The translations under genes and the position numbers were made by a program. The notes beneath the pieces were generated by a model. The model was not told where the DNA came from. It searched no databases and was given only the letters and a program-made list of their open reading frames with translations. DNA of 64,000 nt from a virus, in IMG/VR virus record IMGVR_UViG_3300023199_000204, positions 124,001 through 188,000 of that record. One strand, 5' to 3'. Numbering within the stretch: position 1 is the stretch's first letter; the number at the start of each line of letters is the position of its first letter. Positions 70 through 41,150 of this stretch are shown here, in pieces.

Positions 70-1445
70 ATCTTGATACAAAAATTTTAGCATACTGTCT
101 TTATGAAAAAAGACTATTGATAAGCGTAGAACAAGAAATTACAGCAGATTTCTTTCATCCGGATTATCAAGTGTTTTATAAGCTTTTAGTAAGTTGTTAT
201 AAAAACTACCAAGAAATTCCAACACCTAGAGTTATGATGGAGCAGGCGGGAGCAGTGTGGATTCCTGAACATGATAAAATCTATTCAAGCTCCTTGGAAT
301 TAGAAGTTGATCCAAAGGAACTTCCTCACGATTTAAAAGAATTTAAGAGGAGATTTAACAAAAATCTGCTTCTTAAAACTGGATCTAAAGTATTTAAAGA
401 AAACTGGGACGGCAATGAATTTTCCTCTCTTGAAGAGGCAAACAAAATATTAAAAAATCTAATTGTTGAAATAGATAATATTTATAAAAGTAAAATATAT
501 AAAGAAGGAACTTTATCAGAAACAGTAGATGATGCTTGGGATTCTTTTAGAAAAGTTAGAGATGATCCAGATTCAGCTAAAGGCTTACATGTTGGGTTTG
601 AAACGTTTGATAGAATTTCTAATGGGATAAGACCAGCAGAGCTTGTATTGATTGGTGGAGAGTCTGGTTCGGGAAAGTCTGCGTTGTCAATGAATATGGC
701 AGTTAATGCTTGGAAAGGAAATAATATAATTCCTCACGATCCAGAACTTGTGGGAGAGTTTATAGAGGGCGGCGCCAATATTATTTACTTTACAATTGAG
801 ATGCCGTTTAAAGTTTTGAGAAGGCGGCTAGATGCTTGTATTTCTGGAGTCCCTTTATATGGAATAAGAGATGGAAGTCTAGATGAGAATGAAATTCAAA
901 GATTCAAAGCAGGTCTTAAATTTCAGGAAGAGTATGGAAAACAATTTCACATTGTAGATGTTCCTAGGGGCTGTACTGTTCATCAAATAGAGAGCAAATA
1001 TCTAGAAAAATGTCATGAATTTCAGCCTGATCTTATTGTTGTTGATTATATAAGTCTTATGACTTCTGACAAGGATGAAGGGTCGGATTGGCTTAGTCTG
1101 GGAAGATTAGCGGAGCAAATGCACGAGTTTTGTAGAACTTATAATGTTCCAGTAATATCACCAGTTCAGCTTAATAGACCTCCTAGAAACGGTCACACAA
1201 AACCCGACCAGCACAGGGTTGGAAGAAGTAGTATGTTGCCTCAGAATGCCAATATGTTATTGGCAATAGAAACAAGGCCAGAGGAGGAAACAAGAAGAGA
1301 TATGCTTGTAAGATGGGTAAAGAACAGAGATGGAGAACAAACTTCTTTTATATTACACAAACAACTTAATGTAATGAGAATATTTGATAGTGTTCCTGGA
1401 TGGGAACCGAATATACACGATGGGTATGAAGAAATAAATGTATGA
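66..1445 (+). CDS. dnaB: replicative DNA helicase, DnaB family
   Basis: Hexameric 5'-3' helicase that unwinds the fork during phage DNA replication. The 459-residue product has a DnaB-like N-terminal domain (about 1-110) and a RecA-fold ATPase: Walker A GGESGSGKS near residue 200, Walker B as IVVDYISLM near 325, then a QLNRPP motif. Length fits the family. It overlaps the previous stop as ATGA and the next small gene by 8 nt, so it lies in an operon. No intein is present, although this family often carries one. Confidence 0.93.
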   Translation: MNLDTKILAYCLYEKRLLISVEQEITADFFHPDYQVFYKLLVSCYKNYQEIPTPRVMMEQAGAVWIPEHDKIYSSSLELEVDPKELPHDLKEFKRRFNKNLLLKTGSKVFKENWDGNEFSSLEEANKILKNLIVEIDNIYKSKIYKEGTLSETVDDAWDSFRKVRDDPDSAKGLHVGFETFDRISNGIRPAELVLIGGESGSGKSALSMNMAVNAWKGNNIIPHDPELVGEFIEGGANIIYFTIEMPFKVLRRRLDACISGVPLYGIRDGSLDENEIQRFKAGLKFQEEYGKQFHIVDVPRGCTVHQIESKYLEKCHEFQPDLIVVDYISLMTSDKDEGSDWLSLGRLAEQMHEFCRTYNVPVISPVQLNRPPRNGHTKPDQHRVGRSSMLPQNANMLLAIETRPEEETRRDMLVRWVKNRDGEQTSFILHKQLNVMRIFDSVPGWEPNIHDGYEEINV

Positions 1446-1617
1446 TATAGAAATAGCATATTTAAAGAATGTAATATATGATGATAAAACAGGGCAATTA
1501 TATTTGAAAATGGAAGTAACTGATCCCGTTTGGAAACAAAAAATACTACATAAATGGCAAGAGTTAGATATTAAAATTGTCATTGAGAATAAGGAGAAAA
1601 GTGATGCCGATATATGA
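1438..1617 (+). CDS. small acidic/basic protein of unknown function, 59 aa
   Basis: ATG at 1438 overlaps the helicase stop by 8 nt and the frame stays open to TGA 1615-1617, overlapping the next start. The product begins MYDIEIAYLKNVIYDD and alternates charged and hydrophobic residues. Family not recognised; supported by tight packing and coding-like composition. Confidence 0.65.
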   Translation: MYDIEIAYLKNVIYDDKTGQLYLKMEVTDPVWKQKILHKWQELDIKIVIENKEKSDADI

Positions 1618-1894
1618 TTATATTTGCCTCAATTGTAAATATGAATTTTCAGTTATAAAAAAAGTTGATAAAGATGGAAATTCTATAAGTAGAACAAGTT
1701 GTAGCAAATGTGATGGGTTTGATTTAAAAAAAAAGCTTACCAGTTGCGGAGTTAGAGTAGATTATAAAGATTCTAAAGAAATGTATGAAAGGGTTATAAA
1801 GCCAGATGCTAAAAAAATAGCAGATAAAATTCGTGCTGGAGACGAGGACGCCGCTGCCGATGTTTTTGGAGAAGATAAAGTATTTGGAAGTTGA
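1604..1894 (+). CDS. FmdB-type zinc-ribbon protein
   Basis: The start is ATG 1604, giving MPIYDYICLNC, because AAGGAG lies 9 nt upstream and the family always starts MPxYxYxCxxC. Two CxxC pairs (CLNC, CSKC) form a one-zinc ribbon in the first 45 residues; the rest is a charged tail of about 50 residues ending in an acidic alanine-rich stretch. FmdB-type ribbons are thought to act as small regulators or adaptors; the role here is unknown. It lies between the helicase and the PrkA kinase gene. Confidence 0.75.
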   Translation: MPIYDYICLNCKYEFSVIKKVDKDGNSISRTSCSKCDGFDLKKKLTSCGVRVDYKDSKEMYERVIKPDAKKIADKIRAGDEDAAADVFGEDKVFGS

Positions 1895-1924
1895 TTAGTA
1901 AGTAAAAATTAGGAGAAAGAAAGT

Positions 1925-4900
1925 ATGACTAAAATCAAAAATTCTGGGTCAAAAGGGGTGAATGAAGTGAAAGAAAGTGAAGTAGAAAAAAGCATTTTCG
2001 ATTTAATTAATGATTCTATGGGTGAAGAAGATACTGCGCCCTGGGAAGGAACGGTAAAAGATTATTTACAAAAAGTGATAGCCAAGCCGAGTTTAAATGA
2101 TAATGCCCACGCTAGAATTTGGAGAATGATTGAATCTCACGGAGTAGAGTTTGATGAGGAAGATGAAAAGAAAAAATACCCTAGATATAAGTTTTTTGAA
2201 AACGATTTATTTGGTGTAGATCACGTAATAGCAAGGGTGATGGAATACTTTAAAGCAGCCGTTTCTGGTTCGGAAGAAGTTAGTAGAAGAATTTTACTTA
2301 TGTGGGGCCCAACCTCATCAGGCAAATCGCAATTTGCGACTTTATTAAAAAGAGGCTTAGAGGCATTTTCAAAAACAAAAGAGGGAGAGATTTATGCTTT
2401 GTCAGAGTCACCTATGTTTGAAAACCCACTAGCAGCCATTCCACATTCAGCTAGAGCATCTATTAGAGATAAGTATGGATTAGTAATTGAAGGGGAACTT
2501 TCTCCTAAAATGGCATATCTTTTAGAGCACAAATATAAAGGTGATTTTTGGAAATTACCAGTTAAAAGAATTTTCTTATCTGAGCAGAATAGAGTAGGAA
2601 TTGGAACTTTTCAGCCGGGTGATTCGAAGTGCGTGGGGGGAGATACAATAATACTTACAAATTCAGGACTAATGAGAATAGAAGATATGGAGGAGTTGGT
2701 AGAAAATAATAAAGTAAAAGATTTAATGTGTTTAGATGAAAATGGAAAAGAACACGAGATAACTACATTTTTTAAATATAAAAATAAAGAGGTAGTTGAA
2801 ATAAATACAGAACTTAATTTTAATATAACGGCTACTCAAAACCATCCATTAAAGATTGTTAATAAGGATGGAGATTTTGAATGGAAATGTGCAGGTTTAA
2901 TTTCTGCAGGAGATACTTTAGTTTTAGGGAAAGGAGATATTAATTTTGTCGGAAAAGAACTTCCAGAAAATAAACTTGGTTTAAAGTGGAGTAGTGATCT
3001 AGCTTGGTTATTGGGAGTTTTTATTGCAGAAGGCTCTTATAGAAGAAACACTGTTGAAATATCAAATTGTAATAAAGATGTAAAAAATGTTGTTAAAAAC
3101 TTTGCTGAAACTATAAATTCTACATATATTGTTCGTGATGATAGAATTACATTTACAAGTAAAGAGTTTGTTAATTTCTTAAAAGACATGGAATTTAAAA
3201 CTGGGGCTCATAGCAAATTTATACCTCCAGTTGTTTTTACATCTGGCAAATATATAAAAGATTTTATTCAAGGAATGTGGATTGGTGATGGAAATTTAGG
3301 TAGGCATAAATCCAAAAATACTAATGAAGCTTCATATAGCACAGTTTCAAAAGAGTTGGGTGAACAGGTAAGATTGCTATTACTTACTTTAGGAATTCCT
3401 GCTTCTTTACATAAAGAAAAGGATGTTGGAACATCAGGAGCATTTAAAGTACAAGTTACTGGAAAAAATGTAGAGAAATTACAAGATGTTTTAAATTTGC
3501 CTGAATGGAAAATTACTAGAAAACTTACGGAAAATAAATTTTCAAGCCCAAATACCCTTAGGCTCCCTAATATAGATAATTTATTAAATAAGATATATAC
3601 TAAAACTTGGAAAGGAACTAATTGGTATCCATATATGAATAATAAATCTAGATTCAGTCTAGAATCTTTTCAAAAATTTATTAAAACAGCAAAAGAAAAT
3701 AATATTGAGCAGGAATATTTAAATAAATTAGAGAAGCTATCTAATAAAAATATTTTTTATGTAGATGTTAAAGAGGTTAAAAATTCCATATCTGATGTTT
3801 ATGACATTGAAGTTCCAGGAATACATTATTTTATAGCTAATGGATTTATTTCTCATAATAGTCAAAGTCAATCTGAATTAGTTGGATCTGTAAATTTTTC
3901 TAAATTAGAAGAATATGGTGTAGAATCTCATCCCATGGCCTATAATTTTGATGGAGAACTTAATGTTTCCAATAGAGGAATGATGGAGTTTATTGAACTA
4001 CTTAAAGTAGATCCAAAGTTTAGACATATTCTTTTAACCCTAGCTCAAGAAAAGAGAATTAAGGTTGAAAGATTTCCTTTAATTTCAGCTGATTTAGTTC
4101 CTATTTCACACACAAATGAAACAGAATATAATAAATTCATCGGTGATAAAACTGAAGAAGCTTTGCACGACAGGCTTTGGGTTGTTAATTTCCCTTATAA
4201 CTTAAGGTTAGATGATGAGGTTAGAATTTATAAAAAGTTAATTTATGGCAACACTGGTTTGAGTCAAACTCATATTGCGCCACACACGCTTAAGGTTGCG
4301 GCAATGTTTGCTATCCTATCTAGACTAGAAGAGCCTAAAGATAAAAGTGTTACAATTTTACAAAAGATGCATATGTATAATGAAGAGTCTGTGGATGGCT
4401 TTTCTAAGGAAGATGCTGTTGAATTACATAAAGCTTCAGAAAGAGAGGGCCTAGATGGAGTATCTCCTAGATATGTAGTTAATAGATTAGCAGCGTGTTT
4501 CGCAAAATATAATGTTAGTTCTATCACCCCAATTGATGCCCTTAGAAGTGTTAAAGAGGGGTTAGGAACTAATGCTAAATTAGATAAAGAAGAAGTTACA
4601 AGATTAGAAAACTTGATTTCTCTTTGTATTGAAGAATACAATAAGATTGCTATAAATGAAGTTCAAAAAGCATTTTTCTTAAACTTTGAAACAGAAATTA
4701 AAAATCTTCTTGCTAATTATATTGATAATGTTGGAGCTTATCTCGATGATTCAAAAGTAGAAAATGAGTGGGGCGAGTACGAGGAGCCTGATGAGAGATT
4801 AATGAGGAGTGTTGAAGAAAAGATAGGTATTACCATTAGTGGTGCCGATACTTTTAGACAAGAAGTCTATCGTAAAATGCTTGAATCTAAAAAGCAGGAT

Positions 4901-5134
4901 GGAAGTTATGAATATAAATCACACGCCAGGCTTAAAGAGGCTCTACAGAAACAATTATTTGAAGAAAGAGCTGATGTAATTAGATTAACAGTTTCTACTA
5001 GAAATCCTGATGAAGGTGCTCTTAAGAGATTAAATCAGGTATGTGAAACCCTAATTGATAAGTATGATTATACTGCTGATAGTGCTAATGAGTTGCTACG
5101 ATATGTAAGCAATATAATGAGCAAAAGCAACTAA
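1925..5134 (+). CDS. prkA: PrkA-family serine kinase / AAA+ ATPase, interrupted by an intein
   Basis: Homologue of Bacillus PrkA and E. coli YeaG. The AAA+ part has Walker A GPTSSGKS at residues 128-135; the C-terminal half is the PrkA kinase-like domain. An intein occupies residues 236-645; removing it gives about 659 residues, close to the usual 640. The splice junction restores the conserved stretch that continues QSELVGSVNFSKLEEYG. AGGAG lies 10 nt upstream of the start. It is followed by YhbH and SpoVR, its known genetic partners in bacteria (B. subtilis prkA-yhbH-spoVR; E. coli yeaGH and ycgB). Finding all three in a phage is unusual. Confidence 0.9.
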   Translation: MTKIKNSGSKGVNEVKESEVEKSIFDLINDSMGEEDTAPWEGTVKDYLQKVIAKPSLNDNAHARIWRMIESHGVEFDEEDEKKKYPRYKFFENDLFGVDHVIARVMEYFKAAVSGSEEVSRRILLMWGPTSSGKSQFATLLKRGLEAFSKTKEGEIYALSESPMFENPLAAIPHSARASIRDKYGLVIEGELSPKMAYLLEHKYKGDFWKLPVKRIFLSEQNRVGIGTFQPGDSKCVGGDTIILTNSGLMRIEDMEELVENNKVKDLMCLDENGKEHEITTFFKYKNKEVVEINTELNFNITATQNHPLKIVNKDGDFEWKCAGLISAGDTLVLGKGDINFVGKELPENKLGLKWSSDLAWLLGVFIAEGSYRRNTVEISNCNKDVKNVVKNFAETINSTYIVRDDRITFTSKEFVNFLKDMEFKTGAHSKFIPPVVFTSGKYIKDFIQGMWIGDGNLGRHKSKNTNEASYSTVSKELGEQVRLLLLTLGIPASLHKEKDVGTSGAFKVQVTGKNVEKLQDVLNLPEWKITRKLTENKFSSPNTLRLPNIDNLLNKIYTKTWKGTNWYPYMNNKSRFSLESFQKFIKTAKENNIEQEYLNKLEKLSNKNIFYVDVKEVKNSISDVYDIEVPGIHYFIANGFISHNSQSQSELVGSVNFSKLEEYGVESHPMAYNFDGELNVSNRGMMEFIELLKVDPKFRHILLTLAQEKRIKVERFPLISADLVPISHTNETEYNKFIGDKTEEALHDRLWVVNFPYNLRLDDEVRIYKKLIYGNTGLSQTHIAPHTLKVAAMFAILSRLEEPKDKSVTILQKMHMYNEESVDGFSKEDAVELHKASEREGLDGVSPRYVVNRLAACFAKYNVSSITPIDALRSVKEGLGTNAKLDKEEVTRLENLISLCIEEYNKIAINEVQKAFFLNFETEIKNLLANYIDNVGAYLDDSKVENEWGEYEEPDERLMRSVEEKIGITISGADTFRQEVYRKMLESKKQDGSYEYKSHARLKEALQKQLFEERADVIRLTVSTRNPDEGALKRLNQVCETLIDKYDYTADSANELLRYVSNIMSKSN
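2630..3859 (+). mobile_element. intein with LAGLIDADG homing endonuclease inside PrkA
   Basis: 410 codons in frame with the host gene. It starts at Cys (CVGGDTIILT), has a block-B-like TQNHPL motif and ends FISHN followed by Ser, so splicing is chemically possible. Two LAGLIDADG-type helices are visible (LLGVFIAEG and IQGMWIGDG). It sits in the AAA+ ATPase domain, a conserved site typical of inteins. Confidence 0.92.
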
Positions 5135-5143
5135 GAGGTTTTA

Positions 5144-6340
5144 ATGAGTAAAGAATCATTTAAAGATATTTGGTCTTTGAGAAAACCTGGGGCTCGCGAC
5201 TCCGCTCGTCATAAGGAGCGGGTTCGCGAAGCCATCAAGGATAATCTTAGAGATTTGATAGCAGAAGAAAATATTATTACTTCACACGGAAACAAAAAAA
5301 TTAAGGTGCCAATTAAGTATCTTGATATGTGGAGATTTAAGTTTGGAAAAAACAAAAAGTCCAATAGTGTCGGACAAGGTGAAGGAAAAGAACCAGGGGA
5401 TATTATTGCCAAGGAAGGTGGAAAACCTGGGCAAGGAGATAAGGCTGGAGAGCAAGCTGGTGAAGATATTTATGAAGAAGAAGTAGATCTAGATGAAGTA
5501 ATTGAAATAATGTTAGAAGACCTAGATTTACCCTGGCTTGAAGAAAAAGATAAAGCAATAGAAGTAGAAACCGAAGAGATTGTGTTTCAAGATATTGCTG
5601 AAAAAGGCTTGCCTGCGAACATTGATAAGAGAAGAACTATTCTTCAAAATATGAAACGAAACGCTATGAAAGGTAAAATGCGTATTAAGGGAATAGCTCT
5701 CGAAGATTTGAGATATAAGGTTTGGGAAAAAGTCGTTGAAAAGCATTCAAACGCAGCGGTCTTTTTATTAATGGACCGATCTGGAAGTATGGATTCAGAG
5801 AAAAAGTATATTGTTAAATCATTCTTTTTCTGGATGGTTAATTTTATTAGAAGAAAATATAACAATGTAGAAATTGTTTTTATTGCTCACGATACAAGAG
5901 CCAAAGAAGTTGAAGAGGATAAGTTTTTTGAAATTTCTCAGTCTGGAGGAACCAAATGTAGTTCCGCACTACAATTAGCAAAGGATATAATAGAAGAGCG
6001 TTATCCAGATAATATCTGGAATAATTATGTATATTCTTTTTCTGATGGAGATAATTGGAGTGACGATAATTCTATTTGTGTAGATTTAGTTAAAGATCTT
6101 TTGAAAGTGTGCCAGGCGGTTGGTTATGGAGAAGTTCATTACAATAATTGGTTTTACAACTGGTCACAAAATAATCAAGATAGAATAGAGGATTATAAAA
6201 AATCTAAGTTAGCATACTCATATGATTCTAATCTGGATTTAGTTACTAATCCAAGATTTATGATTGGTGTAATCTCAAAAAGAGAGGATATTTACCAATG
6301 CCTTAGAAACTTTTTGAAAGGAGTTAATTCAAATGAATAA
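5144..6340 (+). CDS. YhbH/YeaH-like protein with a von Willebrand A domain
   Basis: 398 residues, matching the DUF444 family (B. subtilis YhbH, E. coli YeaH). The C-terminal half has the metal-ion-dependent adhesion motif as DRSGSM (DxSxS) near residue 210, then a typical VWA core with SFSDGDNWS. The N-terminal half is highly charged, with a glycine-rich linker. YeaH is a partner of the YeaG/PrkA kinase, and here the gene follows PrkA directly and overlaps the SpoVR start by 8 nt, so the three were probably acquired as a unit. Confidence 0.88.
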   Translation: MSKESFKDIWSLRKPGARDSARHKERVREAIKDNLRDLIAEENIITSHGNKKIKVPIKYLDMWRFKFGKNKKSNSVGQGEGKEPGDIIAKEGGKPGQGDKAGEQAGEDIYEEEVDLDEVIEIMLEDLDLPWLEEKDKAIEVETEEIVFQDIAEKGLPANIDKRRTILQNMKRNAMKGKMRIKGIALEDLRYKVWEKVVEKHSNAAVFLLMDRSGSMDSEKKYIVKSFFFWMVNFIRRKYNNVEIVFIAHDTRAKEVEEDKFFEISQSGGTKCSSALQLAKDIIEERYPDNIWNNYVYSFSDGDNWSDDNSICVDLVKDLLKVCQAVGYGEVHYNNWFYNWSQNNQDRIEDYKKSKLAYSYDSNLDLVTNPRFMIGVISKREDIYQCLRNFLKGVNSNE

Positions 6341-11768: not shown

Positions 11769-14700
11769 ATGGAACTATCAGCGAGGATTTTGTCGGATAT
11801 TGTTGTTTATATGAAATATGCGAGATTTAAACCGGAACTTGGAAGAAGAGAAACTTGGAAAGAACTTATTACTAGAAATAAAAATATGCACATTAAAAAA
11901 TATCCAAAGCTGGAAGACGAAATAGAGGAGGCATATAAATTAGTTTATGATAGAAAAGTACTACCCTCAATGCGCGGACTCCAATTTGGTGGAAAGCCTA
12001 TTGAAATAAACCCAAGTAGGTTATACAATTGTTGCTATACTCCTATGGATGATTGGAGAGCATTTTCAGAAATAATGTTTTTGCTTTTGGGAGGTTCAGG
12101 GGCAGGTTATTCAGTTCAACATCACCATATAGATAAACTACCAGAAATTAAACGACCAAGGAAAAGGAAAAGAAGATATTTAGTTGGAGACTCAATCGAG
12201 GGATGGGCTGATGCTATTAAAGTTTTGATGAAATCATATTTCTTTGGAATGTCTGATATAGATTTTGATTATTCAGATATTAGGCCGAAGGGAACTAAAC
12301 TAGTGACAGCTGGTGGAAAAGCTCCTGGTCCCCAACCTTTGAAAGATTGTATTCATAACATAAGAAAGGTTTTGGATACTAAAGAAGTTGGTAGCAGGCT
12401 TACTTCTTTAGAAATTCACGACATAAATTGTTTTATTGCTGATGCAGTATTGTCTGGTGGGATTCGAAGATGTTTACCACAAAATACTTTAATTCACACT
12501 AAGAATGGATTAGTAAAGATAAAAAATATTAATGTAGGAGATGAAGTTTTAGTTGGTGTTAATAAGTGGGAAAAAGTATATGCTAAAGAAAATACTGGAA
12601 ATAAAAGTCTTTTGACAATAAAGACACAGTTAGGCAATTTTTTCAGTACTCCAGAGCATCGTTGGGCAGTTTTAAAAAACTTAGAAGGAGAAATTTTTTG
12701 GAAAGAGGCGCAAAATTTGTCTAGTCAAGATAGATTAGTTTTTGTTCCAGATATGTTATCACCAGATAACAATTTAGATTTTCCAGAATGGAAATACATC
12801 CCTCCTAAACACTCTACAATTAGTAAAAATATCAAAATTCCAAAATTTTCTGATAAGTACGCGTGGTATCTTGGGTTTTTACATGGGGATGGTTATGTTT
12901 GTAAGTTTAAAAACCTTTGGAAACAGGTAGTTTTTTCTTGCGCCCCAGATATGCCCAAATCTTATAAAAAGGTAATGGAATTGTCTAAAAATTTCAATGT
13001 AAATCCTAGACCTGTTATGAAAACAGATGGTGCCGATAAAATAGTAATAAAATCTAATCAATTAGCAGAATTTTTAAGTCAATACAAAACATCAAATACA
13101 TCAATAGAAGTTCCTGATATTATTCTTAGGGGAGATTATAAAATTAAATCATCTTATATTGCTGGAATCTTTGATGCTGATGGTAGCGTAAAGTCTAAAA
13201 ATAATAAAAAAGTTATGCCCGCAATAAGTTCTATATATTTTGATTATTTAAGACAACTTAGAGCAGTTTTAGCGAGCTTAAATATTCCAACAAAAATTAG
13301 TATTGTTAGACCAGAAAAAGGTAATTGGAAGACATTATATAAGTTAACTACTGTAGGCCAAGAATCTTTATATAGATTTCATGAACTTATTGGCCCGTAT
13401 TCTGAGAAGTGGCAAAATGATAGTAAAGATTTTTCAAGAAAGTGCGAAAGGAAGTCTTTTACCGTGCCCCCAAAATTATTGAAAGAGTCCCAATATAAGA
13501 ATCTTTTTAATGGAAGTTATTCTTCAGATTCTAGGGTAGAGTTATCATTTTTAAAGTTTGAGAAAGATACGAAAAAAAGAGGATATAAGCCAGTTAAAAT
13601 AGTTGAAGTTATTGATGAAGGTATAAAAACCGAGACATATGATATATCAGTAGAAAATGAATTTTGTTTTGTTGCAGAAGGAATGTTAGTTCACAATTCC
13701 GCTATGATTAGTCTCTTTTCATTTGATGATGAAGATATGATAACTTGTAAATATGGTGCTTGGTGGGAACTAAATCCACAAAGGGCGAGAGCAAATAATT
13801 CAGCTGTAATATTGAGGCATTTAATAAAAGAAGAAGAGTTTTATGACTTTTGGAAAAGAATAGAATTATCTAATTCTGGTGAGCCGGGAATATTCTTTTC
13901 AAATGATATGAACACTGGATCGAATCCATGTATGGAAATATCATTAAAGCCCAACTGTTTTTGTAATTTATGTGAAGTTAATGTAAGTGATGTTGAAAGT
14001 CAGGAAGATTTAAATAAAAGAGTTAGAGCTGCTGCTTTTATAGGGACATTACAGGCAAGCTATACTAATTTTCATTATTTAAGAGATATATGGAAACGAA
14101 CAGCAGAAAAGGAAGCTTTACTTGGAATAGGATTAACTGGTATAGCCAGCAATGCTATTCAAAAATTTGATTTACAAGAATCTGTCAAAATAGGAATGAC
14201 AGAAAACGAGAGGGTGGCTAATTTATTAGGAATTAATAAAGCAGCCCGAGTAACTTGTATTAAGCCTTCTGGGACATCTGCTTTAGTTTTAGGTTGTTCT
14301 AGTGGAATACACGCATATCATTCTAAGTATTATATTCGTAGAATTAGAGTTGGAAAGGATGAGGCCATATATAAATATCTTAAAGAACATCTTCCTAATA
14401 TTATAGAGGATGATTTCCTAAAACCAAAACTACAAGCTGTAATCTCTTTACCAGTTAAAGCACCACAAGGTTCAATTTTAAGAAATGAGTCTGCTCTTTC
14501 TTTGTTAGAAAGAGTAAAAGATTTTCATAACAACTGGATTAGTCCGGGGCACAGAAAGGGACAAAATAAGCACAACATTTCTTGTACTGTTTCTATTAAA
14601 AAAGATGAGTGGAAAACAGTAGGCAAATGGATGTGGGAAAACAGAGAGTTTTATAATGGTCTGTCCGTTTTGCCTTATGACTGTGGTAGCTATACTCAAG

Positions 14701-14849
14701 CACCTCTTGAAGAGTGTAGTGAAATAGAATATTTTAATATGCTTAGTAATTTGGAAAAAATTAATTTAAAAGATATTGTAGAGGGGGAAGATAATACAAT
14801 GTTTAATGAAATCGTTGCTTGTGCGGGCGGAAAATGTGACATTGTATAA
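11769..14849 (+). CDS. nrdJ: adenosylcobalamin-dependent (class II) ribonucleotide reductase with intein
   Basis: Reduces ribonucleotides to deoxyribonucleotides without oxygen or iron. 1026 residues, about 617 after removal of a 409-aa intein, which is shorter than the roughly 740-residue Lactobacillus enzyme. Conserved parts are LYNCCYTP (redox cysteine), GGSGAGYS, SNPCMEI (radical Cys plus active-site Glu), CIKPSGTSALVLG and a C-terminal cysteine pair CAGGKC. The intein splits SGGIRR/SAMISL. No nrdB-like subunit is needed. It feeds dNTP supply along with ThyX and the dTMP kinase further on. Confidence 0.92.
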   Translation: MELSARILSDIVVYMKYARFKPELGRRETWKELITRNKNMHIKKYPKLEDEIEEAYKLVYDRKVLPSMRGLQFGGKPIEINPSRLYNCCYTPMDDWRAFSEIMFLLLGGSGAGYSVQHHHIDKLPEIKRPRKRKRRYLVGDSIEGWADAIKVLMKSYFFGMSDIDFDYSDIRPKGTKLVTAGGKAPGPQPLKDCIHNIRKVLDTKEVGSRLTSLEIHDINCFIADAVLSGGIRRCLPQNTLIHTKNGLVKIKNINVGDEVLVGVNKWEKVYAKENTGNKSLLTIKTQLGNFFSTPEHRWAVLKNLEGEIFWKEAQNLSSQDRLVFVPDMLSPDNNLDFPEWKYIPPKHSTISKNIKIPKFSDKYAWYLGFLHGDGYVCKFKNLWKQVVFSCAPDMPKSYKKVMELSKNFNVNPRPVMKTDGADKIVIKSNQLAEFLSQYKTSNTSIEVPDIILRGDYKIKSSYIAGIFDADGSVKSKNNKKVMPAISSIYFDYLRQLRAVLASLNIPTKISIVRPEKGNWKTLYKLTTVGQESLYRFHELIGPYSEKWQNDSKDFSRKCERKSFTVPPKLLKESQYKNLFNGSYSSDSRVELSFLKFEKDTKKRGYKPVKIVEVIDEGIKTETYDISVENEFCFVAEGMLVHNSAMISLFSFDDEDMITCKYGAWWELNPQRARANNSAVILRHLIKEEEFYDFWKRIELSNSGEPGIFFSNDMNTGSNPCMEISLKPNCFCNLCEVNVSDVESQEDLNKRVRAAAFIGTLQASYTNFHYLRDIWKRTAEKEALLGIGLTGIASNAIQKFDLQESVKIGMTENERVANLLGINKAARVTCIKPSGTSALVLGCSSGIHAYHSKYYIRRIRVGKDEAIYKYLKEHLPNIIEDDFLKPKLQAVISLPVKAPQGSILRNESALSLLERVKDFHNNWISPGHRKGQNKHNISCTVSIKKDEWKTVGKWMWENREFYNGLSVLPYDCGSYTQAPLEECSEIEYFNMLSNLEKINLKDIVEGEDNTMFNEIVACAGGKCDIV
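12471..13697 (+). mobile_element. intein in the ribonucleotide reductase, LAGLIDADG type
   Basis: 409 codons starting CLPQNTLIHT and ending MLVHN before Ser. Block B is TPEHRW. Endonuclease helices are YLGFLHGDG and IAGIFDADG. Ribonucleotide reductases are among the most frequent intein hosts, and this GGxRR/S site is conserved. Confidence 0.93.
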
Positions 14850-36287: not shown

Positions 36288-36317
36288 GGGCACCATAGGT
36301 GCCCTTTAAGCATTCGA
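36288..36317 (+). promoter_or_regulatory. hairpin + TTTAGG motif, copy 3
   Basis: GGGCACC-ATA-GGTGCCC then TTTAAGCATTCGA. The interval 36318-36472 after it has no gene. Confidence 0.7.
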
Positions 36318-39572: not shown

Positions 39573-39878
39573 ATGAAGACCATGAAGACCATCAGCAAAG
39601 ACATGATCAAAGAGTTGCAGGTCGGCGACGCCGTACTGGTCCTGACCAGCACGGCGCATTACTGGACAGGGAGGATCGTCTCTCTGTCCATGACAGAGAT
39701 CGCCCTCGACGAGGCGGCCTGGATCTCGCAGGTGGGCCGCCACAGCGACTGCGTCGCACGAGGAGACCTGAGTGGGGCTGAGATCGAGCCCCACGCTGAC
39801 GGGCAGATTACCAGGCTGCCTCGGATCGGCAGCGTGGTAGTGGACTGGATCCACGCGTTGCCGCGCGAGCAGCGCTAA
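39573..39878 (+). CDS. hypothetical protein, 101 aa, GC-rich
   Basis: ATG 39573 behind AAGGAC (MKTMKTISKDMIKEL). Beta-rich, with VGDAVLVLTSTAHYWTGRIV resembling a small barrel. Stop overlaps the next ATG as TAATG. Bacterial-like GC-rich codon use. Not recognised. Confidence 0.65.
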   Translation: MKTMKTISKDMIKELQVGDAVLVLTSTAHYWTGRIVSLSMTEIALDEAAWISQVGRHSDCVARGDLSGAEIEPHADGQITRLPRIGSVVVDWIHALPREQR

Positions 39879-40270
39879 TGGACGATCTCGCAGGGGAGCT
39901 CGAGCAGCTGATGCGCGCTGGAGACGAGCGCGTGCTCACGGACTACATCGCCGAGCACGCGCTCGAGTGGCTGTGGCTGCCGGCGCCGACCCTTCCGCTG
40001 ATAGCGTGGTCTGGGCGGCTGTCGGGGTCGCGGTCGCGGTCGAGGTCGTGGTCGTGGTCGCTGTCGGGGTTGCGGTCGCGGTCGAGGTCGTGGTCGCTGT
40101 CGGGGTTGCGGTCGCGGTCGAGGTCGAGGTCGCGGTCGCGGTCGAGGTCGTGGTCGGGGTCGGGGTTGCGGTCGCGGTCGAGGTCGTGGTCGAGGTCGTG
40201 GTCGGGGCCGAGGCCGAGGTCGAGGTCGCGGTCGCGGTCGAGGTCGTGGTCGGGGTCGGGCTGGCTCTGA
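39878..40270 (+). CDS. short N-terminal domain fused to a Ser-Arg hexanucleotide-repeat tail
   Basis: The first 45 residues (MDDLAGELEQLMRAGDERVL, YIAEHALEWLWLPAP) look like a real domain of an unnamed family. From about 40020 the frame runs through a GGTCGN repeat, giving an SRSRSW tail. The repeat is open in all frames, so the protein C-terminus is uncertain. Confidence 0.5.
   Translation: MDDLAGELEQLMRAGDERVLTDYIAEHALEWLWLPAPTLPLIAWSGRLSGSRSRSRSWSWSLSGLRSRSRSWSLSGLRSRSRSRSRSRSRSWSGSGLRSRSRSWSRSWSGPRPRSRSRSRSRSWSGSGWL
40020..40261 (+). repeat. GGTCGN hexanucleotide minisatellite
   Basis: About 40 imperfect units of GGTCGC, GGTCGA, GGTCGT and GGTCGG in higher-order blocks. Extremely G/T/C-biased with few A on this strand. 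Confidence 0.9.
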
Positions 40271-40343: not shown

Positions 40344-40478
40344 ATGCGCAAGACTCATAAAAAGATTGGTCCTGGCGGAGTGAAGTGTCCTTGCTGTAAT
40401 CCTTATGGTAAGGACATTAAGAAAAAGCTTAATCGTTGGGAGCGACGCAAGGTAAAACAAGAGCTTAAAACTTATTAG
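40344..40478 (+). CDS. very small zinc-knuckle-like basic protein, 44 aa
   Basis: ATG 40344 behind ACGGAGG. MRKTHKKIGPGGVKCPCCNPY, then a lysine-rich helix. The CPCC cluster and basic tail suggest a nucleic-acid-binding peptide. Immediately precedes the rRNA-like element. Confidence 0.65.
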   Translation: MRKTHKKIGPGGVKCPCCNPYGKDIKKKLNRWERRKVKQELKTY

Positions 40479-40484
40479 CTTATG

Positions 40485-40702
40485 GGGTGCTGTGAGAGTT
40501 TGGAAATGCTGGGAGGTAGGCTTAGAAGCAGCCAGCGGTGTTGAGCAAACCGCATACCTTTAAAGAGTAGCTCATACCCACTCTAGGTGAGTTTGACCGT
40601 GAAGGCTCGCGGAAACCTTGCCGGAGTTTAGGAGTCGGTCTAGAACGACTTTTAATGAAAACCAGGGTTGAGAAAATGCTTTTGGCGTAATAGCACACCA
40701 GT
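40485..40702 (+). ncRNA. 23S rRNA GTPase-associated-centre-like RNA
   Basis: Positions 40518-40534 read AGGCTTAGAAGCAGCCA, the universally conserved L11/thiostrepton-loop hairpin of 23S rRNA domain II (about 1060-1077 in E. coli). TTTAAAGAG (40559-40567) and TAGCTCA (40568-40574) follow in rRNA order. The missing second loop, GCGTAATAGC followed by ACACCAGT, appears at 40685-40702. An extra GCGGT/ACCGC hairpin is inserted. No coding frame covers it. It is likely a structured RNA derived from or mimicking rRNA. Confidence 0.7.
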
Positions 40703-40723
40703 ATTTATTGGAGTAAAAATCCT

Positions 40724-40768
40724 AAAGGTCGTTGGTCTTTCTCAAGACTACGACCTTTAGGCATTCGA
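40724..40768 (+). promoter_or_regulatory. hairpin + TTTAGG motif, copy 12
   Basis: AAAGGTCGT/ACGACCTTT with an inner GTCTT/AAGAC stem, then AGGCATTCGA. Lies directly after the rRNA-like RNA and may end its transcript. 40769-40983 holds no gene, only a GACC-GAAA-GGTC hairpin. Confidence 0.75.
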
Positions 40769-40983
40769 GGACACTTTAGCGCGTATGGTTGGAAGGTTGG
40801 TATATACATTTAAGTGTTTGACTGTGTTGTGGAGCACCCCCCCCAATGAGATAAGGGACTTCAAGTTCTTTTCCTAAGTGTGTGGGACCGAAAGGTCAAA
40901 AACTAACACAGCGAGATCGGCGGAAGTATCACACGACTCCGCGCGGATCTCCATTTGGCGATAAAAAATAACAGAATAAGGAT

Positions 40984-41024
40984 AAGCCCGGATACTTAAT
41001 TGTATTCGGGCTTTAGGTATTCGA
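40984..41024 (+). promoter_or_regulatory. hairpin + TTTAGG motif, copy 13
   Basis: 12-bp stem AAGCCCGGATAC/GTATTCGGGCTT (one G-U) then TTAGGTATTCGA. The next 126 nt form a GC-rich structured leader (AGCGGTTAGCCGCT and others). Confidence 0.75.
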
Positions 41025-41150
41025 GGAGCTTGTCTCCTAGAAATTGTTAGACCTTGTGAAGACCGCGGGGCGCCACTTCCCCCGGCCGGCAGACACGCCG
41101 GTGTTCTTCCGGCGGAAGAAATAGCGGTTAGCCGCTGAAAGGAAAGGTAC

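Follow-up and report, generated by a model that had tools for sequence, protein, structure and literature searches.

A structured RNA gene was identified at positions 40504-40706 of the window, by which we mean the whole 64,000-nucleotide stretch analysed (positions 124,001 to 188,000 of IMG/VR record IMGVR_UViG_3300023199_000204, a 316-kb virus record carrying several tRNAs). The element contains a complete 58-nt GTPase-associated centre (GAC, the L11-binding domain; E. coli 23S rRNA positions 1051-1108), which is split between positions 1090 and 1091 by a 112-nt insert and a UUUG linker and bears a second hairpin at the bulge U1078. Many unrelated phages carry the same two-part element, and we regard it as virtually certain that this family of rRNA-mimicking phage RNAs is real. 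The initial annotation had described a phage-borne RNA that resembles the GAC and in which an inserted structure moves the second loop away; covariation in about 100 relatives lends strong support to this description.

The true ends of the element are set by a closing helix, P1, rather than by the limits 40485-40702 originally assigned, which were wrong. Its 5' strand, AAATGCTG (40504-40511, corresponding to positions 1047-1054 of rRNA helix H42), pairs with the 3' strand, CAGTATTT (40699-40706, H42 positions 1105-1112), with one G-U pair. All parts lie on the + strand. Positions 40512-40534 (GGAGGTA GGCTTAGAAGCAGCCA) form an exact rRNA core equivalent to 1055-1077, i.e., the 5' part of H43 and the 1067 loop, and are followed by the extra hairpin GCGGT...ACCGC at bulge U1078 (40535-40556), a local fold. 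The segment CCTTTAAAGAGT (40557-40568) corresponds to 1079-1090 and comprises the 3' strand of H43, the tertiary pair U1082-A1086, and G1087, A1088 and U1090. The 112-nt insert domain (40569-40680), closed by AGC/GCU, replaces a short link inside H44, and is followed by the UUUG linker (40681-40684) and the equivalent of rRNA 1091-1104 with the 1095 loop (40685-40698); the two together, TTTG GCGTAATAGCACAC (40681-40698), occur as a single exact copy in the window. The numbering follows E. coli 23S rRNA, and A1067 and A1095 land at the expected places.

The words on which the resemblance had been based were all located where claimed: AGGCTTAGAAGCAGCCA at 40518-40534, TTTAAAGAG at 40559-40567 and TAGCTCA at 40568-40574 for the first part, GCGTAATAGC at 40685-40694 and ACACCAGT at 40695-40702 for the second. 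The 16-mer among them is present once in the window, compared to about 3e-5 copies expected in 64 kb, and TTTGGCGTAATAGCACAC is also found in one copy only, at 40681. The assignment of TAGCTCA to the flank of the rRNA 1095 loop was mistaken, as this stretch consists of U1090 and the first six bases of the insert (stem AGC...GCU); relatives carry other bases at this place and the resemblance to rRNA is accidental. Because TAGCTCA belongs to the insert, a pattern scan with the exact pattern including it returned zero matches. Folding of the segment yielded -71.5 kcal/mol (z = -3.1), and none of 200 shuffles folded as well. No second copy of a GAC-like element was found in the genome of the window itself. 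Upstream and outside of the RNA, a 44-aa ORF (MRKTHKK...CPCC...; 40344-40478, + strand) with a Shine-Dalgarno-like GGAGGTG gave no Pfam match.

Several other features were observed in the window. The 341 nt directly downstream of the element (40720-41060) fold far better than shuffled sequences (z -3.7), form two strong hairpins and possibly represent a second structured RNA. The motif TTTAGGYATTCGAGGA has eight matches in the window compared to 0.18 expected, one of them on the - strand and the others intergenic on the + strand at 36305, 36591, 39439, 40756, 41012, 43304 and 46758; at both copies inspected (40756 and 41012) it is located after a hairpin, and it looks like transcript punctuation, a terminator or a processing signal. 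Positions 1925-6340 hold a PrkA serine kinase gene, split by an intein with a LAGLIDADG domain, and then a DUF444 gene, and similar PrkA-like genes occur in Thermus phages. The ribonucleotide reductase ORF at 11769-14849 may also hold an intein. Within the ORF at 39878-40270, a degenerate GGTCGC/GGTCGAGGTCGT hexamer repeat with 16 overlapping copies spans 40005-40270.

Relatives were collected from IMG/VR phages, from phage-like stretches of bacterial genomes and from named phages. In pattern scans of IMG/VR, the 3' word matched at least 119 loci and the 5' word 102, and the two sets were joined. BLAST of the region against named phages pointed to unannotated spots in pf16, XacN1 and GAP32, all at the same query position, where both GAC halves were present around a different insert. 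Named carriers comprise the Pseudomonas phages pf16, Milchi, UNO-G1W1 and Astolliot (with two tandem copies), Aeromonas phage 4_4572, XacN1, GAP32, Erwinia jumbo phages, the Rak2-like jumbo phages CBB, BF, XbC2, Kaldavass and the SNUABM series, and apparently also XaC1. The scan of bacterial genomes yielded 16 loci with both halves (Clostridia including Flintibacter muris, Bdellovibrio, Nitrospirota, Bacteroidota, Parcubacteria and others), and those examined had phage proteins nearby, such as a tail fibre, a portal, an RNA ligase and DNA methyltransferases. In total, at least about 158 GAC-like elements were obtained, of which 126 remained after removal of redundancy, with 104 distinct cores. 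Tandem pairs occur in Pseudomonas phage Astolliot (L199, 3642-4190), whose first copy is divergent (GGTGTCATAACACGCC in the 3' loop), hinting at specialised paralogues, and also at locus L159.

Some candidates were rejected. About 29 of 45 bacterial genome-contig matches had no 5' half and are probably due to chance, and 19 of 115 loci with the 3' word that had no 5' half were treated likewise. BLAST matches in short phage records, and the Paenibacillus Pd_22F, Listeria, Staphylococcus, Salmonella and Escherichia records, represented real 23S rRNA and were set aside. The Paenibacillus phage Pd_22F record (L203, MZ092003) aligns to real 23S rRNA over a long stretch, at about 1431-3803, and this stretch is probably host contamination or misassembly. 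Among the matches listed for a plasmid search, only tRNA-like ones were present.

The alignment of the phage cores provided strong evidence for a selected structure. In a set of 58 distinct cores, 91.2% of cells were paired, compared to 68.8% in shuffled controls, which ignore the relatedness of the cores, and 28-51% when the partners were slid; cells with double changes numbered 361 compared to 121 after shuffling, with a covariation score of 0.56 versus 0.14. Among the 104 cores, as in the 58-core set, the closing helix P1 and the pair 1058-1080 in H43 covaried; P1 showed 75-98% pairing per position versus about 40-75% shuffled, and 1058-1080 was formed in 96% versus 44% shuffled. A-U variants of H43 were found at 1062-1076 (loci L022 and L250) and at 1064-1074 (L224, L088 and L103). 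Also the tertiary pair 1082-1086 varied (UA in 58, CG in 19 and AU in 18 of the 104 cores) and was paired in 91% versus 54% shuffled (91.4% in the 58-core set). As both bases switch together between UA, CG and AU, the tertiary fold of the rRNA, beyond its helices alone, is under selection. Given the slid controls and the range of pair types, an explanation other than structure is not tenable, and the structure is clearly conserved in relatives. The sequence of P1 is not fixed across the family, so P1 does not reproduce the sequence of the part of H42 that lies below the GAC.

Since conservation within the search words is partly built in, each half was scored in loci picked by the other half. 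The 5' half was found upstream in 96 of the 115 loci picked by the 3' motif alone (at least 15 of 21 positions; among shuffled sequences, one score equalled 15 and none exceeded it), and the 3' half in 74 of 77 loci picked by the 5' motif alone. In these unbiased halves, G1055, G1059, U1060, G1071 and C1072 were conserved in 49 of 49 and C1092, G1093, A1098, G1099 and C1104 in 55 of 55, while loop-tip and variable positions were less constant (A1067 41/49, G1068 38/49, A1070 36/49, A1095 50/55). In the GAC, G1071 and C1072 form base triples with G1091-C1100 and C1092-G1099, and these loop-loop residues were invariant or nearly so. The extra hairpin at U1078, which is an exposed nucleotide in the GAC (PMC4409310), was found in 17 of 110 non-redundant members, most others having one base or nothing at this place.

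The phage elements thus share with the GAC of 23S rRNA (H42-H44, 1051-1108, part of RF02541) the register of the closing helix, H43 with the 1067 loop, H44 with the 1095 loop, the covarying 1082-1086 pair and the invariant residues U1060, A1084, A1085, G1087, A1088, G1071, C1072, G1091, C1092, G1099 and C1100. They differ in being stand-alone, in the 37-360-nt insert at 1090/1091 with its UUUG linker, in the optional hairpin at 1078, in A1101 opposite U1090, in the unconserved P1 and in scoring below the gathering threshold of the LSU model. A contiguous 58-nt GAC inside LSU rRNA was not what we found, and no other 23S sequence follows in the window or in most members. Comparison with the Rfam LSU model had been proposed at the outset, and the outcome was divided: the window gave no LSU match at E <= 1, but the best relative tested, L143, matched at positions 1084-1153, exactly the right place, with 31.4 bits (E 5e-6). 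Neither the window nor the relatives tested reached the RF02541 gathering threshold of 50 bits, and Rfam 15 scans of the window and relatives identified no non-tRNA family at the elements except for sub-threshold LSU. Conversely, a covariance model built from the phage cores alone found three real 23S rRNAs (38-44 bits, E 1.5e-7 to 3.6e-9). A long insert makes this core model report two separate hits, and on the window its hits, of 23.1 and 17.3 bits, therefore have weak E-values.

The 1090/1091 insert, the UUUG linker and A1101 opposite U1090 are common to all phage copies and absent from the three 23S rRNAs. These shared departures from rRNA and the long-term covariation point to a selected family and not to a recent stray copy. 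Of the earlier suggestion of a captured rRNA fragment, only a remote ancestry therefore stands; the data suggest that the family arose from rRNA once, in the distant past, and has since been evolving in phages for a long time.

With regard to function, we favour, with moderate confidence, the interpretation that the element is a trans-acting, non-coding phage mimic of rRNA that would bind the host ribosomal protein uL11. Isolated GAC RNA of about 58-60 nt is able to fold by itself and to bind L11 (PMC10161774, PMC4409310), and the features required for this fold are retained in the phage RNAs, suggesting that they may bind uL11 as well. In addition, the residues that hold the fold are kept more strictly than the loop tips A1067 and A1095, as expected if the partner reads the folded domain, L11 above all. 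The tips are where EF-G or thiostrepton make contact, and the pattern of constancy accordingly favours L11 over translational GTPase factors; L11 is the probable main partner. The phage RNA would be transcribed during infection, adopt the tertiary structure of the GAC, with H44 carrying an added domain specific to the phages, and offer a second binding site for uL11; the occupied L11, or the L11-RNA complex, might then tune translation for the phage. L11 is needed for the activation of RelA and helps factor function, so lowered or redirected L11 could blunt the stringent response. The likeliest effect would be a weaker L11-dependent activation of RelA when tRNAs are depleted or uncharged, and a blunted response would suit phages with tRNAs and RNA-repair enzymes; we nevertheless consider the effect on the stringent response doubtful. 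Some points speak against an L11 mimic: the insert splitting H44 at 1090/1091 might hinder L11, and the variable insert may hold the real function with the GAC merely as a handle. Furthermore, L11 is an abundant protein, most of which sits on ribosomes; a sponge would thus have to reach high RNA levels, or its action would be confined to newly made L11.

The insert is the basis of the alternative that retains the most weight, though we consider it unlikely, namely that the GAC-L11 contact only docks the insert to L11 or ribosomes, or that L11 is a structural cofactor of a larger RNP, and that the insert does the work. An insert is present in every member and is itself structured, the first three pairs of its closing stem being formed in 91-100% versus 41-61% shuffled, and in the Rak2-like jumbo phages, a synteny group, it contains additional covarying helices. 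A module, CACCCC-N(5-10)-GGTAAGG, is conserved in 26 of 126 members at a fixed distance of 10-12 nt from the insert 3' end (e.g., in L003, L051, L055 and L060). However, the inserts are very diverse in length (37-360 nt) and sequence, and no module common to all was found among the 126 members compared. The helix flanking the module seems to covary (GAGCC/GGCUC in L107, GUC/GAC in L023).

The constancy of the loops also bears on a further possibility, which we regard as improbable: that the RNA is a decoy for a host or competitor effector attacking the GAC of 23S rRNA, such as a nuclease toxin, a modifying enzyme or a thiopeptide-like inhibitor, and thereby spares the ribosomes. The exposed loops are copied closely, and nearby phage tRNAs and RNA-repair enzymes would fit a general response to RNA-targeting defence; RNA-repair genes near some copies include an RNA ligase (XacN1), a PNK/ligase (L241) and RtcB (L076). 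A decoy for an enzyme that reads the loops should, however, have constant tips, whereas A1067, G1068 and A1095, which effectors of this kind recognise, show the lowest constancy of all rRNA-like positions. Moreover, we know of no widespread defence that cleaves the GAC.

The elements are non-coding, with stops in all three forward frames in 117 of 126 and insert lengths spread evenly over the three classes modulo 3. A tRNA was located within 300 nt of 62 of the 126 elements, compared to 21% when positions were drawn at random from these loci, and the element of L217 resides inside an array of 25 tRNAs. All 259 tRNAs within 1 kb of elements were on the same strand, which partly reflects co-directional phage gene blocks. 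Neighbour clustering revealed no constant protein neighbour, any family being present in at most 11 of the 126 neighbourhoods; the RNA itself is therefore likely the agent. Proteins with DUF2828/DUF7788 (PHROG 850 'RNA-binding protein') were found in only 6 of 124 loci; in L055, L017, L069, L199, L200 and L246 these large proteins are encoded 0.5-3.4 kb away on the same strand. In a 376-kb phage contig (L054), sub-threshold matches to YrlA (Y-RNA-like) were observed downstream of the element at 1253-1479 and 1619-1767.

The genomic context also weighs on the idea of a cis-acting leader or terminator, by which L11 or a phage protein binds the element and controls a downstream gene. Leaders of ribosomal-protein mRNAs are established mimics of the rRNA sites of these proteins, and like the phage element they copy such a site outside the ribosome. 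T-rich tracts follow 35 of 125 elements (28%, compared to a 10% background), suggesting that some elements may end transcripts. The leaders, however, act in cis on ribosomal-protein operons, whereas neither an adjacent ribosomal-protein gene nor a conserved downstream gene was found in the 126 loci, and the elements often lie between tRNA genes and are not followed immediately by an ORF, rendering cis action very improbable. Finally, a few database records do hold real 23S rRNA (L174, L183, L203). In view of compensatory changes in about 100 divergent copies, the shared non-rRNA features and the synteny conserved among jumbo phages, it is nevertheless hardly conceivable that the elements are functionless leftovers of captured host 23S rRNA or contamination.

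Genes for tRNAs and for a few ribosomal proteins are known from viral genomes, but to our knowledge no viral RNA copies a catalytic-factor centre of rRNA. No report of a phage-borne RNA mimicking the GAC was found in the open-access full-text literature, and the family is absent from Rfam 15. GOLLD and ROOL come closest in habit, being, like the phage GAC elements, structured non-coding RNAs of phages or prophages, often near tRNA islands; as described in passages of PMC12286853, GOLLD binds ribosomes in pull-downs and the function of both is unknown. These RNAs are much larger, their Rfam families do not match the phage GAC elements, and no likeness to the GAC was found in those passages. The bacterial OLE RNA, suggested to sequester the ribosomal protein RpsU/S21 (according to passages of the same source), is a precedent for an ornate RNA proposed to sequester a ribosomal protein, but is unrelated in sequence and structure and is not a copy of an rRNA domain. 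On this evidence, a phage copy of an rRNA functional centre that would act in trans represents a new kind of system.

Taken together, we put forward tentatively, as a proposal just short of evenly balanced, that an ancient RNA gene of large phages infecting many bacterial phyla mimics a functional ribosomal centre and, by capturing L11 or factors that work at this centre, shuts down the stringent response or readjusts host translation, acting together with the phage tRNAs. If true, these elements would be the first class of trans-acting viral rRNA mimics. The family is abundant, easily recognised by its motif and present in cultivable phages, and the suggested target is L11 together with the stringent response or factor binding; the way in which huge phages control translation would thereby become directly accessible to experiments. 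For ribosome biochemists, the family offers about 100 naturally occurring versions of the GAC, which also show where insertions are tolerated.
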